This document shows, piece after piece, positions 1,872-9,041 of a stretch of 40,361 bases of DNA; the first letter of the stretch is position 1; each line of letters begins with the position of its first letter. The position numbers and the translations under genes were made by a program. The notes below the pieces were generated by a model that ran no database searches, had not been told where the DNA came from, and saw only the letters and a program-made list of their open reading frames with translations. The stretch is from Tissierellia bacterium (GTDB lineage: Bacteria; Bacillota; Clostridia; Tissierellales; Tepidimicrobiaceae). The stretch is from positions 1-40,361 of the forward strand of contig JAAYFV010000019.1 of the NCBI GenBank assembly GCA_012728075.1. Reading direction: 5' to 3'.

Positions 1872-3416
1872 TTATACTGGTAGATTGCCGTGTTTTTTGG
1901 AAGGATTGGTCTCTCGTTTGCTTTCTAACATGTTAAAAGCGGATATTAGTCTTGGTCTTGTTGTGCTTGGTACTATAACATCGTCTATATACCCTCTTTC
2001 TGCTGCTATATATGGATTGGCTACGGTGTTTCTGTATTCTTCTATTTTTTGCTGTCTTGTTTCTATTGGATTTTCTGATTCTTTTATGTCGTGTTTAAAT
2101 ATTATATTTGCTGCTCCTTCTGGTCCCATTACGGCTATTTCTGCGTTAGGCCATGCAAATACTTGATCAGCTCCTAGTTCTTTGTTGCACATGGCTATAT
2201 ATGCTCCACCATAGGCTTTTCTTATGATTAGGGTTACTTTAGGTACTGTGGCTTCGCTGTAGGCATAGAGCATTTTTGCTCCGTGACGTATTATTCCTCC
2301 ATATTCTTGGTCTGTTCCTGGTAAAAATCCTGGTACGTCTACTAGGTTTAGTAGAGGAATGTTAAAGGCGTCACATGTTCTTATGAATCTTGCTGCTTTG
2401 TCTGAGGCGTTTATGTCTAAACATCCTGCTAGTATTCTTGGTTGATTTGCTACTACTCCTACGGTTTTCCCATTTAGTCTTATGTATCCTGTTATTATGT
2501 TTTGTGCATAGTGTTGTTGTATTTCAAAAAGTTCTCCATTGTCGGCTAATAGTTGTATTATTTCTTTCATGTCATAGGGTTTGTTTGGATTTGTTGGGAC
2601 TATTTCGTTTAGTTTTTCTTCTACTCTATTTATGTCGTCAGAGGTTTCATATACTGGTGGTACCTCTAGATTGTTTGATGGTAAATAGCTAAGTAATGTT
2701 TTTATCCTTTTTATAGCTTCTTCTTCTGTTTTATCCATAAAATGAGCTACCCCTGATATGGTGTTATGAGTTTTTGCTCCTCCTAGCTCTTCTTGGGTTA
2801 CATCTTCTCCTGTTACGGTTTTTATTACTTGTGGCCCTGTTATGAACATTTGGCTTGTGTTTTCTACCATAAATATGAAGTCTGTTAAGGCTGGAGAGTA
2901 TACTGCTCCTCCTGCACAGGGTCCCATTATGGCTGTTATTTGAGGGATTACTCCTGAGGAGATAGTGTTTCTATAGAATATGTTTCCATAGCCTGATAGA
3001 GCGTCTACTCCTTCTTGGATTCGTGCTCCTCCAGAGTCGTTTATTCCTACTATTGGCGCTCCCATCTTTAATGCCATATCTTGTACTTTACATATCTTTG
3101 CTGCATGCATCTCTCCTAGGGAACCTCCTAGTACTGTAAAGTCTTGGGCATATACAAATATTAGTCTTCCGTCTACCGTTCCATAGCCTGTTACTACTCC
3201 ATCTCCTGGGGCTTCGGTCTTTTCCATTCCAAAGTTGGTACATCTATGTTTTACAAAGGCATCTATTTCTATGAAACTTCCTTCATCTAGTAATAGTTCT
3301 ATCCTTTCCCTTGCTGTTAATTTTCCTTTAGAATGTTGTTTTTCAATTCGTTTTTCTCCACCACCAAGTTTTATTTTCTCTTTGGTTTCTAGGAGTTTTT
3401 CTATTTTTTCCTTCAT
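1872..3416 (-). CDS. mmdA: Methylmalonyl-CoA decarboxylase alpha subunit (carboxyltransferase)
   Basis: This 514-residue protein moves the carboxyl group of (S)-methylmalonyl-CoA to biotin on MmdC, releasing propionyl-CoA. It has the two crotonase-fold halves of the propionyl-CoA carboxylase beta / MmdA family. In the first half it has GGSLGEMHA and [12 protein letters not shown]; in the second, VDVPGFLPG and the Gly/Ala-rich acyl-CoA pocket [12 protein letters not shown]. The length matches the family. The true start is the ATG at 3416: AGGAGG just upstream lies inside the codons of a possible longer reading from 3431. It sits between the epimerase and the other pump subunits, which favours the sodium-pump decarboxylase over an ATP-dependent carboxylase; no biotin carboxylase gene is visible. 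Confidence 0.95.
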
Positions 3417-3437
3417 TTTCTTCCTCCTCATATATGT

Positions 3438-3839
3438 TTATTGTTTTTCACAAAGCTCTACTAAAACTCCATACGTATCTTTTGGATGTGCAAAAGCAAT
3501 TTTAGCTCCTCCTGCACCATATCGAGGTTTTTCATCTATCATTCTTATGCCTTTTTCTTTCATCTTTTCTATGGCTTCTTCTATGTTTTCAACTTTATAT
3601 GCTATATGTTGTACTCCTTCTCCTCTTTTTTCTATATGTTTCCCTATAGGTCCATCTGCTTCTGTTGATTCTAATAATTCAATTTCTGTATCTCCTATGG
3701 GTAAAAAAGCAGTTTTGACTTTTTGTTCTTCTATTACCTCAGTTTTAACACATTTGATGCCTAAAACCTCTTCATAAAACTTTATGGCTTTATTTAAGTC
3801 CTTTACAGCTATGCCTATATGGTCTACTTTGATTACCAT
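3438..3839 (-). CDS. mce: Methylmalonyl-CoA epimerase
   Basis: This 133-residue enzyme interconverts (R)- and (S)-methylmalonyl-CoA, linking the mutase (R form) to the decarboxylase (S form). It has two vicinal-oxygen-chelate (glyoxalase-fold) repeats. The expected metal ligands H7 (DHIGIAV), H78 (GVQHIAY) and E128 (VLVELCE) are present. The start ATG follows GGAGGGG. It is 14 bases after meaB and 21 bases before mmdA, so it is probably translated from the same mRNA. Glyoxalase I is the main look-alike, but the surrounding mutase operon makes epimerase the strong choice. Confidence 0.95.
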   Translation of the reverse strand: MVIKVDHIGIAVKDLNKAIKFYEEVLGIKCVKTEVIEEQKVKTAFLPIGDTEIELLESTEADGPIGKHIEKRGEGVQHIAYKVENIEEAIEKMKEKGIRMIDEKPRYGAGGAKIAFAHPKDTYGVLVELCEKQ

Positions 3840-3853
3840 AAAACCCCTCCAAT

Positions 3854-4789
3854 CTATTGTTTAATTAACTTTAACATCTCATCCTTAGCAGAATAAGGGT
3901 CCAATCTTTTATCTAATACTTCCATTGATAATTTCTCTAAAATGTTTTCCCTTATTGCCTTCTGCATTATTAAACTCATCAATTCTTCTTCTACAAGTTT
4001 TAATATTTCAAATTTGGTGTTATTTTTTCTTCTATCAATTATTTTTCCTGTTGTTTCTAAATATCTTTTGTGAGCTAAAATATTATCCAATAGTTCATCT
4101 ATGTTTTGATTTTTGCTAGCTGATACCTTTATCACTGGAGGCCTATAATCTTCTTTTTGATTTAAGTCTAAATTCATCTCTATTTCTAATTTGGTCTTAT
4201 CTGCTCCATCTATATCAGCTTTATTTATAGCAAATATATCTGCTATTTCCATTATTCCTGCTTTTATAGCTTGTATATCATCACCTAAATTGGGTACCAT
4301 AACCATAAGTACCGTATCTGCAGTTTTTACAATATCTACTTCTGATTGCCCCACTCCTACGGTTTCTATAAATATATAATCTGCTCCCCATAGATCCAAT
4401 ACTTTACATGCCCCCCTTGTAGCTTTGGACATTCCACCTAAGGAACCTCTAGTTCCCATACTTCTAATGAATACATCTTTGTCCACAGCTAAATCGTTCA
4501 TACGAATTCTATCTCCTAATATTGCTCCTCCTGTGAAAGGGCTAGTAGGATCTATAGCTATAATGCCAACTTTTTTATTCATATTCCTTAATTTCTTAGC
4601 CAATCGATCTGTCAAGGTGGATTTCCCACTGCCAGGAGGCCCAGTAATCCCTATTACATAAGCATTGCCAGTGTATTTATATAGTTTTTTGATTATGTCT
4701 ATAGCTTCTTTTTGATTATTTTCCAACATGGTGATGAGTCGAGCACAAGCTCTTTTATCTCCCTTTAGAAGTCTCTCATCTATATTCAA
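3854..4789 (-). CDS. meaB: MeaB-type GTPase, methylmalonyl-CoA mutase chaperone
   Basis: This 311-residue P-loop GTPase of the MeaB/ArgK (G3E) group gates cobalamin loading and protects methylmalonyl-CoA mutase from inactivation. Walker A GPPGSGKST is at residues 50-58. DPTSPFTGGAILGDRIRM (the switch-containing segment), FIETVGVGQSE (Walker B/switch II area) and NKAD (base recognition) are all present. The start is a TTG preceded by AGGTGGTG; no ATG lies close. It sits directly after the B12-binding mutase subunit and before the epimerase. Older annotations call this family an arginine/ornithine transport kinase (ArgK), which the context does not support. Confidence 0.94.
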   Translation of the reverse strand: MNIDERLLKGDKRACARLITMLENNQKEAIDIIKKLYKYTGNAYVIGITGPPGSGKSTLTDRLAKKLRNMNKKVGIIAIDPTSPFTGGAILGDRIRMNDLAVDKDVFIRSMGTRGSLGGMSKATRGACKVLDLWGADYIFIETVGVGQSEVDIVKTADTVLMVMVPNLGDDIQAIKAGIMEIADIFAINKADIDGADKTKLEIEMNLDLNQKEDYRPPVIKVSASKNQNIDELLDNILAHKRYLETTGKIIDRRKNNTKFEILKLVEEELMSLIMQKAIRENILEKLSMEVLDKRLDPYSAKDEMLKLIKQ

Positions 4790-4805: not shown

Positions 4806-5201
4806 TTATCTTTTTAAATTGTTTTTAATATATTCTACTACCTCACTAGTAGGAGTTCCTGGGGTAAATATTGCTTCTACACCTGATTCCTTTAGGAAAG
4901 GTATATCTTCTTCAGGGATAACTCCTCCACCAATAATTAGTATATCATCTACTCCCTCTTCTTTTAATAAATTTACTACCTTAGGAAAAAGGTGGTTATG
5001 TGCTCCTGATAATATACTCATAGCTACCACATCTACGTCTTCTTGTATAGCTGCTTGTACTATTTGCTCAGGAGTTTGTCTTAAACCTGTATATATCACT
5101 TCCATACCTGCATCCCTTAATGACCTTGCAATGACCTTTGCTCCTCTATCATGACCATCTAAGCCAGGTTTTGCCACTAAAACTCTTATTGGTCTTTCCA
5201 T
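4806..5201 (-). CDS. mcmA2: Methylmalonyl-CoA mutase, B12-binding small subunit
   Basis: This 131-residue Rossmann-like domain holds adenosylcobalamin in the base-off/His-on form. The diagnostic D-x-H-x-x-G is present as DGHDRG with D15, H17 (lower axial ligand of cobalt) and G20. Further conserved parts are SILSGAH and [11 protein letters not shown]. The length fits a stand-alone cobalamin domain, as in clostridial and archaeal mutases where it is separate from the catalytic subunit. The ATG follows GGGAGG. An unusually long 146-base spacer separates it from the large subunit and holds a hairpin-forming element, listed separately. Confidence 0.95.
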
Positions 5202-5347: not shown

Positions 5348-7027
5348 TTAAAGTATTACAGATTGTTCATATTCACCAAATACTTCTCTTAATACTCCAC
5401 AAATCTCTCCTAAAGTTGCATATGTTTTTACAGAATCCAATATATAAGGCATTAGATTTACATCAGTCTTTGCAGCATCCTCTAATGCTTTTAGACTTTC
5501 TTTTACTTGATTATTGTCCCTTTCATTCCTCAAGGTTTCTAACTTTTGTCTCTGTAATCTCTCTACCTCTGGATCTACCCTTAATATATCTTCATGGTGA
5601 TCTTCATCTATTTGGAATTTATTAACCCCTACTACTATTCGCTCTTGGGATTCTATCTCCATTTGATAGCGATATGCTGAGTCTTGAATTTCTTTTTGAA
5701 TATATCCTTTTTCTATGGCTTTTGGAGCACCACCTAATTCATCTATTTTTTCAATGTATTTCATAGCTTCTTTTTCAATTCTATCAGTTAAGTTTTCTAT
5801 ATAGTAAGAGCCTGCTAATGGATCTATGGTTTCAGCTACTCCAGATTCATGGGCAATTATCTGCTGAGTTCTTAGAGCAATCCTTACTGCTTCTTCAGTA
5901 GGTAGCGCCAATGCTTCGTCTTTTGAATTGGTGTGCAAAGATTGAGTTCCACCAAGAACTGCTGCTAAAGCTTGAATAGTTACCCTGATTATATTATTAT
6001 CTGGTTGTTGTGCTGTTAAGGTTGAACCAGCTGTTTGAGTATGGAATTTTAACATCATGGATTTTTCCTTCTTGGCATTAAATCTCTCTTTCATAATCCT
6101 AGCCCATAATCTTCTAGCTGCTCTATATTTTGCTACTTCCTCTAATAAATCATTGTGTGCATTGAAGAAAAAAGATAATCTAGGTGCAAAATCATCTACA
6201 TCTAATCCCGCATCTATGGCGGCTTCTACATAAGCAATTCCATCTGCTAGTGTAAAGGCTACTTCTTGAATAGCTGTAGCTCCTGCTTCTCTTATATGAT
6301 ATCCACTAATACTTATGGTATTCCACTTTGGTACTTCTTTGGAACAATATTCAAATATATTGGTAATGAGTCTCATAGATGGTTCTGGAGGAAATATGTA
6401 AGTTCCTCTTGCTATATATTCTTTTAATATATCATTTTGTATGGTTCCCCTTAACTTTTCCTTAGGCACTCCTTGCTTTTCCGCTACAGCAATATACATT
6501 GCTAATAAAACACTTGCTGGTGCATTGATGGTCATGGAAGTACTTACTTTATCCAATGGAATGCCGTCAAATAATATTTCCATATCCTTTAAAGAGTCTA
6601 TAGCAACTCCTACTTTACCTACTTCTCCTTCTGATAAACTATGATCTGAATCATATCCTATTTGAGTAGGTAAATCAAATGCAACACTTAGACCTGTTTG
6701 CCCTTGTTCTAATAGATATTTATATCTCTTATTGGATTCTTCTGCAGTGGCAAAACCTGCATATTGTCGCATAGTCCAAAGCCTACCTCGATACATAGTA
6801 GGTTGAACTCCTCTGGTGTATGGATATTCCCCTGGAAACCCTAGTTTTTCTTCATAATCAAAATCTTTTATATCTTCTGGTGTATATAGCCTATCTACTT
6901 CTAAATTGGATCCTGTTGTGAATTTCTCTTTCCTCTCAGGAAATCTACTAATAGCTTTTTGTACCTTTTCTTCTGTCCATTTCTCTTTAGCCTTTTTAAT
7001 CTCCCCTATCTTGTTTTCATCAAACAT
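5348..7027 (-). CDS. mcmA1: Methylmalonyl-CoA mutase, large catalytic subunit
   Basis: This 559-residue enzyme rearranges succinyl-CoA and (R)-methylmalonyl-CoA using adenosylcobalamin held by the separate small subunit. It covers the substrate TIM barrel only; the B12 domain is absent, as expected for the split form. The residues that matter fall at the same numbers as in the Propionibacterium enzyme: Y89 (MRQYAGFAT), Q197 (GTIQND), R207 and H244 (SGYHIREAG). Tyr and Arg at positions 89 and 207 argue for methylmalonyl-CoA mutase and against isobutyryl-CoA mutase, which has Phe and Gln there. The ATG follows GGAGGG. It is the first gene of the operon, behind a sigma-A-like promoter. Confidence 0.96.
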
Positions 7028-7086
7028 CTTTTCGCCCTCCTTGTATTGGAAAAGTTAACCACCTTAAATATATCCATTCACTATAT

Positions 7087-7116
7087 ATTATAGTAATAAT
7101 TACATAGATTTTGCAA
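7087..7116 (-). promoter_or_regulatory. Sigma-A-type promoter of the mutase/decarboxylase operon
   Basis: On the minus strand TTGCAA (7116-7111) is followed after 18 bases by a perfect TATAAT (7092-7087), about 60 bases before the mcmA1 start. The -35 match is modest (4/6) and the -10 is exact. The -35 hexamer is itself one of the TTGCAA repeats described in the next entry, so a protein bound there would block polymerase. Confidence 0.65.
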
Positions 7117-7161
7117 CATTAATTTCAATATATTTTGAAAATGCAATAAATATTGCAAAAT
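7108..7161. promoter_or_regulatory. Candidate operator: phased TTGCAA inverted repeats over the mutase promoter
   Basis: ATTTTGCAA (7108-7116) and its exact reverse complement TTGCAAAAT (7153-7161) flank the -35 region. The two palindromic TTGCAA cores are 42 bp apart centre to centre, four helical turns. The upstream copy is also part of a 16-base palindrome, TGCAATAAATATTGCA (7142-7157). This looks like a multi-site repressor operator. The regulator is unknown; the motif does not match the Rex, CodY or CcpA consensus that I know. Confidence 0.45.
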
Positions 7162-7181
7162 TTGTTCTATTGCCACAATAT

Positions 7182-7213
7182 AAAAAAGGCAGCTAATATA
7201 ATTTTTAGCTACC
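7182..7213 (-). terminator. Rho-independent terminator after ftsH
   Basis: On the minus strand GGTAGCT (7213-7207) pairs with AGCTGCC (7194-7188) with one G-T pair, a 12-base A/T loop and a following six-T run (7187-7182). It begins 7 bases after the ftsH stop and separates the sporulation block from the mutase operon. Confidence 0.85.
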
Positions 7214-7220
7214 TTGTTTT

Positions 7221-9041
7221 TTATGCACTTGCTGCCAAGAATATTTCTTCAAATTCTTTGCCATCTAGAGTTTCTTTTTCTAAAAGAGCCTCTGCCACTT
7301 TATGAAGAACATTCATATTATCTTTTAATATCTGTTCTGCTTTACTATATGCTCTATCTATTAATGTTCTCATCTCTTCATCTATGGCTGCAGCTACTTT
7401 CTCACTATAGTTTCTAGTCCTTCCAAAATCCCTACCTACAAATACTTCTTCTTCGTCTGTACCATATGTCATAGGTCCAAGTTTTTCACTCATACCATAA
7501 TGGGTGACCATTCGTCTTGCTAATTTAGTAGCTCTTTCAATATCGTTTTGGGCTCCTGTACTTATATCTCCTAGTACTAAAGCTTCTGCAGCTCTTCCTC
7601 CTAATAATTGAACCAATTCGTCTTCCATTTGTTTTTTCGTCATATAATATCTATCTTCCTCAGGCAAATAAGCAGTAAATCCCCCTGCCATACCTCTAGG
7701 GATTATGGTTATCATGTGAACAGGATCTGTATTTGGTAAAAGTCTTGCAGTAATTGCATGACCTGCTTCATGATAGGCGGTAAGCCTTCTTTCTTTTTCG
7801 CTAATTACCTTGGATTTCTTTTCTGGACCTGCTACAACCTTTATTGAAGCTTCATCTATAATTTCCATAGGAATTTTCTTTAAATTTTTCCTAGCTGCTA
7901 ACAATGCTGCTTCATTAGTTAAGTTCTCTAAATCTGCTGGCGTAAATCCAGGAGTTCTCTTTGCCACTACCTTTAAATCTACATCATCATCTAAAGGCTT
8001 GTTTCTAGTATGAACCTTAAGGATTTCTTCTCTAGCTTTTATATCAGGTAATCCTACATAGATCTGTCTATCAAATCTACCTGGCCTTAAAATTGCTGGA
8101 TCTAATATATCAGGCCTATTAGTAGCTGCCATTACGATTATACCTTCATTGGTACCAAAACCATCCATTTCAACCAAAAGTTGATTTAAAGTCTGCTCTC
8201 TTTCATCATGGCCTCCACCTAGCCCTGCACCTCTTCTCCTTCCTACTGCATCGATTTCGTCTATAAATATTATACAAGGTGCATTCTTTTTTGCCTCTTC
8301 AAACAAATCTCTAACTCTACTAGCTCCAACTCCTACAAACATTTCTACAAAATCAGAACCAGATATACTAAAAAATGGAACTCCAGCTTCTCCAGCTACA
8401 GCTTTACTTAAATACGTCTTTCCTGTTCCTGGAGGCCCTACTAATAGTACACCTTTAGGAATTCTAGCTCCTATTTCTAAATATTTTTTTGGACTCTTTA
8501 AAAAGTCTACTATTTCCTCTAATTCCTCTTTTTCTTCTTCTAAACCTGCTACATCATCAAAAGTAACCAGATTGCCCTCTTCCTCTTTATGCATCTTAGC
8601 TTTACTCTTTCCAAAAGACATAACCCGATTACACCCACCTTGGGATTGTTGCATAAGGACAAACCAAAATACAACAAACATCAATATTACAAATATTGTA
8701 GGTAATGCGGTAATAAACCATGGTTCAGTTGGCTCAGGTTCTGCACTATAACTTTTTATCTGACCAGATTCTACTTTATCCCTCAAATAATTTTCATAAA
8801 AATTATTTTTCATATGTTCGGGAATCATAAAAGTATATTGAGTACCGTCAACTAGCTTTCCTTTTAATGTATCACCTACAGTTATAATACTTTCTATATT
8901 ATTATTTTCCAAATTGGTCAAAAACTCAGTTACATCCATTGCTTTAGCTTGCTCTACATCTTTGCCAAACATAGTTACTACAAATATTATTATGATGAAT
9001 AAAAGCAAGTAAAGACTTGTGCCTCTAAAAAATCTTCTCAA
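7221..9041 (-). CDS. ftsH: ATP-dependent zinc metalloprotease FtsH
   Basis: This 606-residue membrane AAA+ protease degrades damaged or regulatory membrane and soluble proteins. TM helices lie at about residues 9-25 and 108-130, flanking a small extracytoplasmic domain. Walker A GPPGTGKT is at 202-209, Walker B FIDEID at 259-264, the second region of homology ([18 protein letters not shown]) at 308-325, and the zinc site HEAGH at 424-428. The start is TTG at 9041 with AAGGGAGG 7 bases upstream; no better start is in frame. It is the last gene of the spoIIE-yabS-yabT-tilS-hpt-ftsH run, the same order as in Bacillus, but it also has its own promoter. Confidence 0.97.

Follow-up and report, generated by a model that had tools for sequence, protein, structure and literature searches.

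The promoter region of a methylmalonyl-CoA mutase operon in a Tissierellia bacterium carries inverted repeats that contain TTGCAA, which raises the question of what kind of regulator might read them and which other genes it might control. We examined this question starting from a stretch of 40,361 nucleotides (the window; GCA_012728075.1, JAAYFV010000019.1, positions 1-40,361), which is part of contig C77 in a genome of 2.38 Mb and 229 contigs.

Two 16-bp palindromes lie at the predicted promoter of the mutase operon

The operon is encoded on the minus strand and begins with mcmA1 (5348-7027), the large part of methylmalonyl-CoA mutase (PF01642; TIGR00641, 877.7 bits, cut-off 303.8), followed by mcmA2 (4806-5201), the B12-binding part of the mutase (TIGR00640, 181.6 bits, cut-off 57.45), the gene for the MeaB GTPase (3854-4789; TIGR00750, 358.2 bits, cut-off 240.75) and that for methylmalonyl-CoA epimerase (3438-3839; TIGR03081, 169.2 bits, cut-off 114.95). 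Further downstream are genes for a methylmalonyl-CoA decarboxylase of the Na+-pump type: an mmdA-like carboxyltransferase (1872-3431; PF01039), named with reserve because its match to TIGR01117 is full-length yet below the cut-off (932.8 vs. 998.8 bits); a gamma-type subunit (1495-1866; PF04277, 62.8 bits, cut-off 27); and two subunits named by eye from sequence and position, a biotin carrier (1073-1465) and a membrane beta-type subunit (3-1049) that continues beyond the window and has a counterpart of 393 amino acids in genome G001. A Na+-pumping methylmalonyl-CoA decarboxylase is described in PMC8473912, and the glutamate routes given in the accessible part of that article are different ones.

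The upstream neighbor is ftsH (7221-9041, minus strand, named by eye), which we place outside the regulon; several relatives have no ftsH match upstream of mcmA1, and a terminator-like stem-loop behind ftsH (7186-7215, minus strand) divides the ftsH and mcm transcription units. Between ftsH and mcmA1 sits a predicted minus-strand promoter, with a -35 TTGCAA at 7111-7116 and, 18 nt from it, a -10 TATAAT at 7087-7092; of the 37 mcmA1 promoters that have a site as defined below, 17 show the same 18-nt spacing. No Rfam family reached its gathering score within 6900-7300.

The original prediction described exact inverted repeats, one overlapping the -35 and the other within a 16-base palindrome. 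Indeed, we found ATTTTGCAA at 7108-7116 and TTGCAAAAT at 7153-7161, with TTGCAA cores that start 42 bp apart; the TTGCAA read from 7116 to 7111 is the predicted -35, and TGCAATAAATATTGCA at 7142-7157 is self-complementary at 14 of 16 positions, with the central AA as the exception. Comparison with relatives nevertheless altered the unit: what is conserved is an imperfect palindrome of 16 bp, TGmAA-N6-TTkCA, rather than ATTTTGCAA, and the ATT/AAT flanks that had been counted into the repeats vary across relatives. The relatives' sites define two copies on the minus strand, a promoter-proximal candidate operator, TGAAATTAATGTTGCA (7112-7127), whose last five bases, TTGCA, lie inside the -35, and a distal candidate operator, TGCAATATTTATTGCA (7142-7157), whose centre is 30 bp upstream. 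The distance of 42 bp, although correctly measured, is that between the outermost half-sites of two adjoining sites; the conserved spacing of centres at mcmA1 is 29-31 bp, that is, three helical turns and not the four that had been proposed.

The exact repeat pair occurs once in the 2.38-Mb genome (first-order Markov expectation ~0.012) and in none of 2000 dinucleotide shuffles of 7028-7220, and a phased pair of strong sites was likewise absent from all 2000 shuffles of this region. The parts are less unusual: TTTTGCAA alone is unremarkable (2 in the window vs. 2.8 expected), and a palindrome within two mismatches of TGCAATANNTATTGCA arises in 25 of 100 window shuffles, the real one having 0 mismatches.

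The sites are conserved before mcmA1

The original prediction depended on conservation of the repeats upstream of mcmA1 orthologues, and such conservation is what we found. We detected mcmA1 in 52 of 61 genomes (our own and 60 relatives) and, placing start codons by homology matches, compared the upstream regions of 50 of the 57 rows, leaving out G058, G046, G032 and two fragments each of G012 and G057. At least one strict TGmAA-N6-TTkCA lies within 230 nt in 32 of the 50 regions, and 37 of the 50 contain a site with a matrix score of at least 12; the remaining 13 lack such a site, and thus mcm is not a regulon member everywhere. In our genome and related genera the element reads TTGCAAyATWWATTTCA-N13 to N15-TGAAATWWATrTTGCAA or close to it, with centres 29-31 bp apart. 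It occurs both with and without ftsH as the upstream gene; five of 14 plus-oriented loci (L005, L007, L008, L011 and L014) keep it without an upstream ftsH match. When the matrix was used to scan 80 named mcmA1 loci, 18 had a site scoring at least 13 that no more than 1 of 100 shuffles equalled; the remaining loci include many from distant phyla. Among the 18 are Natronincola peptidivorans (L111) and Alkaliphilus serpentinus (L118), each with a second site 30 bp away.

Three further features of these loci were noted. In nine genomes (G041, G025, G029, G042, G026, G056, G024, G043 and G044) a conserved TAATAGTCTATA stretch follows the proximal TTGCA before mcmA1, spaced unlike our own family, and is possibly another promoter arrangement. 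The mcmA1 leaders of L033, L042 and L044 (G043, G055 and G027) contain words such as TGTAAACGCTTTCA that resemble the cre consensus, which suggests added catabolite control in that family. Single in-frame stop codons are reported in some genomes, in the mcmA1 and rpiR matches of G016 and in rpiR of G301 and others.

A kor operon is a second predicted target

The original prediction had pointed to other genes of the pathway, in this genome and in relatives, as places where the same repeats might recur, and a similar pair indeed precedes korDABC. A pair pattern with a gap of 12-16 matched in 31 of 249 genomes of the order and led, besides mcmA1, to a ferredoxin-korA operon. With the gap widened to 11-41, the 61 genomes yielded 58 pair places, of which 35 precede kor, 20 precede mcmA1 and 3 lie elsewhere, so that 55 of 58 stand before one or the other. 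Thus the scope originally given, the mutase/Na+-decarboxylase operon, is well supported and incomplete: kor appears to be a target as well, as does, in some genomes, the regulator gene rpiR described below.

We found korA in 52 of the 61 genomes. KorA scores above the cut-off of NF006412, the alpha subunit of 2-oxoacid:acceptor oxidoreductases (606.5 vs. 411 bits), and the proteins stay below the cut-offs of the 2-oxoglutarate-specific OorDABC models (NF007206, alpha, 483.2 vs. 579; NF007207, beta, 341.8 vs. 364). From the pathway, the substrate of KorDABC is probably 2-oxoglutarate. Since 2-oxoglutarate:ferredoxin oxidoreductase produces succinyl-CoA, the substrate of the mutase, one type of operator would precede two consecutive parts of a route from 2-oxoglutarate to propionyl-CoA. 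We infer that the direction is fermentative, from glutamate and other amino acids that form 2-oxoglutarate to propionate. Preceding korD in many relatives, frequently as its immediate neighbor, is a gene for a 465-amino acid oxaloacetate decarboxylase alpha-like protein (L214:7333-8730 and its counterparts, named by eye), through which the pathway could be connected to pyruvate/oxaloacetate.

Because 66 kor and 51 mcm sites served to train the scoring matrix, high scores at kor and mcm are circular; the independent tests are the kor promoters missed by the pair searches, the kor promoters of a class-wide sample, and the rpiR promoters. We assembled 52 kor promoters, from 47 of the 52 relatives with korA (all except G010, G028, G030, G041 and G046) and from G195, G196, G201, G219 and G451. 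All 52 (51 in the order, and G451) have a site scoring at least 12, including all 15 that no pair search had picked, a count made without shuffles. Among 31 class-sample kor promoters, 30 of them outside the order, 27 have a site scoring at least 10 and 19 one scoring at least 12. At kor, the site includes the TTGCA of the -35, and a -10 resembling TA..AT follows 18 nt on in 46 of the 52 promoters; 47 of 52 have a TG at the extended position, and the -35 matches are poor.

To judge the background, we relied on the class sample of 391 genomes, since the reversed-pattern control, which with the pair patterns matched nothing in any genome, is too lenient: its Markov expectation is 11-15 times below that of the real pattern. 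The 372 genomes outside our order held 18 background pair places (~0.05 per genome), all of them in open frames of at least 122 codons from many families, with two groups consisting of near-identical sequences. The sole exception outside the order was G451, from a different family, which has exactly two pairs, one before mcmA1 (30 bp) and one before korDABC-rpiR (41 bp).

Searches for single sites were set aside. A looser one in our own genome gave 53 matches against 21 for the reversed control and was too noisy for use, and a regulon search with single TGAAAYWWWWVTTGCA in 20 genomes of the family gave 96 matches, of which 55 were kor/mcm and 41 were others; 16 of the 22 others that we read lie in open frames. 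Two suggestive places, which we do not claim as targets, came to light. In L291 (G018:C176:11644-11659), from a genome without korA and mcmA1, a kor-type site, TGAAATAAAACTTGCA, lies 35 bp before a gene resembling a TAXI-type solute receptor, and in L293, L294 and L296 (G016, G006 and G019) a kor-type site lies between a MerR-like gene and a Cys-rich open reading frame of 50 amino acids, which is annotated in L293 and L296 and readable in the sequence of L294.

Paired sites are spaced by whole helical turns

Two sites scoring at least 8 are present in 46 of the 52 kor promoters, at distances of 29 (1), 30 (4), 31 (1), 32 (5), 40 (26), 41 (8) and 42 bp (1). Thus, 11 pairs are spaced 29-32 bp, 35 are spaced 40-42 bp, and none falls at 33-39 bp. 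The 25 mcm pairs are spaced 29 (3), 30 (16), 31 (5) or 109 bp (1). In the class-sample kor promoters with a site of at least 10, the second-best element, often of weak score, lies 39-41 or 51-52 bp away in 20 of 27. These counts come from related genomes and, through shared descent, are not independent of one another. Distances that jump by about one whole turn with nothing in between nevertheless argue that two bound proteins must share one face of the DNA. Binding of a regulator to two sites in helical phase before the mutase/Na+-decarboxylase operon is a well-supported prediction.

An RpiR-family gene accompanies the sites

The original prediction knew of no regulator with this motif in the pathway, and we now propose an RpiR-family candidate. 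In our genome the kor operon, on contig C51, is korDABC-rpiR; its fifth gene (C51:31585-32475), directly after korC, encodes a protein of ~290 amino acids with an HTH_6 domain (PF01418, 58.5 bits, cut-off 28.3) and a SIS domain (PF01380, 79.3 bits, cut-off 25). This protein falls short of the HexR model (NF008451, 83 vs. 296 bits) and of AlsR, MurR, SapR and other named RpiR equivalogs (best 70.6 bits, NCBIfam cut-offs 355 to 920).

Homologues of rpiR above 230 bits are present in 58 of the 61 genomes, and in 49 of the 52 relatives that have korA, rpiR follows it on the same strand within ~3 kb. The exceptions are G017, in which the operon is split within korC, and G030 and G046, in which korA and rpiR are on different contigs, partly near contig ends, and probably parted by assembly breaks rather than truly separate. 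In G017 (L225, L263), korDAB and the first part of korC are at ~0.34 Mb, and the remainder of korC, together with rpiR, is at ~1.59 Mb on that contig, by rearrangement or assembly error. Within the class sample, 36 genomes have korA (E to 1e-120) and 232 have rpiR (E to 1e-50); the two are adjacent in at least 31 of the 36, and G327 had no rpiR among the matches listed. Since rpiR is much more widespread than korA, it must have other roles. Likewise, it must act otherwise in six relatives (G002, G014, G018, G034, G047 and G059) that have rpiR but no korA (by whole-genome search), mcmA1 or site pair. In one of these, G002 (L264), sequence similar to that of the kor promoter (AAATCTTGCATGATTG...TTTTGTTATTCTAATC) still stands before rpiR.

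We examined the regions upstream of 29 of the 232 rpiR homologues, most of them among the best matches. In family f58, where rpiR is apart from kor, 10 of 17 rpiR promoters contain a site (13.6 to 21.6 bits) that 0-1 of 200 shuffles matched, a fraction that describes a non-random sample. This test is independent, as the matrix was trained solely on kor and mcm sites. No site scoring at least 10 was found in the other 7 f58 promoters or in any of the 12 rpiR promoters from outside f58. At the threshold used, korA was found in only two of the 17 f58 genomes (G552 and G450), on another contig. In 8 of the 10 f58 promoters with a site, the last letter of a TAAAAT is shared with the beginning of the site, and a TTGATA or TTGAAA stands 17 nt further up, likewise in 8 of 10; in this arrangement the site would cover the transcription start. 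We read seven rpiR neighborhoods, six from f58 and one from f44, and the gene that follows rpiR in G365 and G450 encodes an NADP-specific glutamate dehydrogenase (720 and 706 bits against a cut-off of 536), which likewise acts in 2-oxoglutarate metabolism. We regard the f58 rpiR promoters as the best evidence, at the level of sequence, joining rpiR to the motif. Upstream of rpiR in two f44 loci (L372 and L391, from G273 and G306) we noted TTTGCAAG-N14-CTTGCAAA, a dyad of greater length whose half-sites are similar and which brings to mind the 28-bp version of the RccR site.

The SIS domain of the candidate regulator is unusual. The loop that usually marks phosphosugar binding in RpiR proteins, S-x-S-G-x-T, indicates the usual class of ligand and not the family. 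Our regulator departs from this loop, with ISYPRYSKRT in its place, and P191, R192, Y193 and S194 are the same in all 18 orthologues aligned; 3sho, the best match in the PDB, likewise deviates from the usual loop. The unusual loop leaves room for a non-sugar ligand.

A predicted autoregulated repressor and its alternatives

We consider it likely, on the whole, that an autoregulated repressor of the RpiR family, acting on phased operators, controls the fermentation of glutamate/2-oxoglutarate to propionyl-CoA. In this model, 7112-7127 and 7142-7157 would form a double operator for the helix-turn-helix and SIS protein, which would bind the two palindromes from the same side of the helix, most likely cooperatively, three turns apart at mcm and four at kor. 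The site lies on the -35 (at kor and at our own mcm) or on the predicted start (at f58 rpiR), so that bound RpiR would mask the promoter and block initiation by RNA polymerase. RpiR would govern jointly its own korDABC-rpiR operon and the mcm operon, and hence a route from 2-oxoglutarate through succinyl-CoA and methylmalonyl-CoA to propionyl-CoA with Na+ export, and a metabolite bound to the SIS domain would release it. The original prediction had suggested a cooperative or looping repressor; the two phased sites agree with this and the overlap with the -35 favors repression, while long-range looping is unnecessary, as it is enough for two proteins to bind next to each other on the same side of the helix.

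The first alternative keeps the same RpiR protein and sites but makes it an activator that, bound near -39 and at least one turn upstream, would recruit RNA polymerase with its ligand. ClaR and GlaR of Lactococcus, both of the RpiR family, are described as activators in the accessible portions of the literature, as are several Gram-positive RpiR proteins; moreover, the distance from site to -10 at kor is rigid (the 18 nt noted above), as might be needed for activation, and the -35 matches are poor. On the other hand, the f58 rpiR site lies at the predicted start, and the distance from the mcm site to the best -10 varies by family (13, 15, 19, 20 or 23 nt), in some cases ambiguously, where a conserved TATAATAGTCTATA offers two candidates. 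These shifts are partly of half a turn, as is more compatible with occlusion than with contact. A protein at these places would stand in the way of RNA polymerase, and an activator could hardly accommodate an mcm site that in some other families is about half a turn nearer to the best -10; the autoregulated repressor is therefore favored, and we consider activation rather unlikely.

About equally improbable, in our judgment, is that a regulator encoded elsewhere, such as a global redox or carbon regulator, binds the sites and that rpiR is beside kor by coincidence. Dyads of the 5-N6-5 format, which the sites share, are also recognized by CRP/FNR-like and Rex-like proteins, and many genomes have an rpiR with no site seen before it. 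Against such a regulator stand the adjacency of kor and rpiR across the class sample, the sites immediately in front of rpiR in genomes that have kor at another place or in which it was not detected, and the resemblance to RpiR-family sites in the accessible parts of published reports.

The remaining explanations fare much worse. PrpR/RamB-type regulators (ScfR family) read TTTGCAAA in actinobacterial propionate metabolism, and TTTTGCAA looks similar in a propionate-related pathway; the inner half-site, however, is TGAAA/TTTCA and the flanks vary, which makes a regulator of this type very improbable. A transcribed hairpin or riboswitch in place of a DNA operator is less credible still: the two inverted mcm sites could pair, but they lie upstream of the predicted -10, the kor sites are co-oriented in 32 of 34 loci (exceptions L187 and L188) and so form no single hairpin, and the Rfam search of 6900-7300 was negative. 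Chance or AT-rich composition, despite the commonness of TTTTGCAA and of near-palindromes in shuffles, has hardly any probability left given the absence of the phased strong pair from 2000 shuffles and the conservation of such pairs in front of these two operons across many families.

Returning to the autoregulated repressor, we note a more far-reaching possibility, which we put forward tentatively and hold to be less probable than not: that a branch of RpiR proteins across the clostridial class, with its 16-bp site pairs held 3, 4 or 5 helical turns apart, has left sugar control, its PRYS loop sensing a non-sugar metabolite of glutamate, 2-oxoglutarate or acyl-CoA metabolism and switching the fermentation of amino acids to propionate, coupled with Na+ export. 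RpiR proteins are viewed as sugar-phosphate sensors, and a member devoted to 2-oxoacids, if real, would widen that view. The predictions assign two operons of a single energy-conserving route to one regulator, and give a widely distributed regulator, on which the literature searched yielded no study, a candidate site, a candidate regulon and a phased double-operator design. They also raise the question of which signal amino-acid-fermenting Clostridia perceive on directing 2-oxoglutarate to propionate.

Comparison with known RpiR-family systems

The candidate regulator belongs by its domains to a known family, and we did not find its target pathway described: in the literature, mostly open-access text, we found no RpiR-family regulon for the methylmalonyl-CoA, 2-oxoglutarate or propionate pathway, so that a prior prediction is possible. 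PrpR/RamB regulators are alike in their propionate-related role and TTTGCAAA-like word, and differ in that the unit and the inner half-sites do not match. HexR and RccR, both RpiR-family proteins of Pseudomonas, share the HTH and SIS domains and the control of central carbon metabolism; in contrast, their sites are TGTAGT/ACTACA or TTGT-N7-8-ACAA and their ligand is KDPG. The SIS loop of HexR is unlike that of our regulator. RccR of Pseudomonas has two copies of its pseudo-palindrome at aceE, according to the accessible part of PMC5489143. ClaR and GlaR are, like our candidate, RpiR proteins of low-GC Gram-positive bacteria, and differ, in the parts of their descriptions available, as activators of sugar genes.

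Two further RpiR-family systems are NanR and IolR. In the accessible text of PMC4509764, the pneumococcal NanR site is quoted as TCTGAAASTACTTTCARA, with half-sites four bases apart, and for Clostridium perfringens NanR, whose gene is the last in its operon, a conserved GAAAAATATTTTC is suggested as the site. NanR is thus similar, as far as that text goes, in that the regulator gene ends its own operon and the half-sites are GAAAA and TGAAA, and different in serving sialic acid genes. Caulobacter IolR reads GGAA-N6-TTCC, with two copies in the iolC promoter (PMC2597717, accessible part). IolR regulates inositol catabolism and its half-site is GGAA rather than TGmAA, yet it has the same N6 between half-sites. 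In sequence, TGmAA-N6-TTkCA resembles both GGAA-N6-TTCC and TCTGAAASTACTTTCARA.
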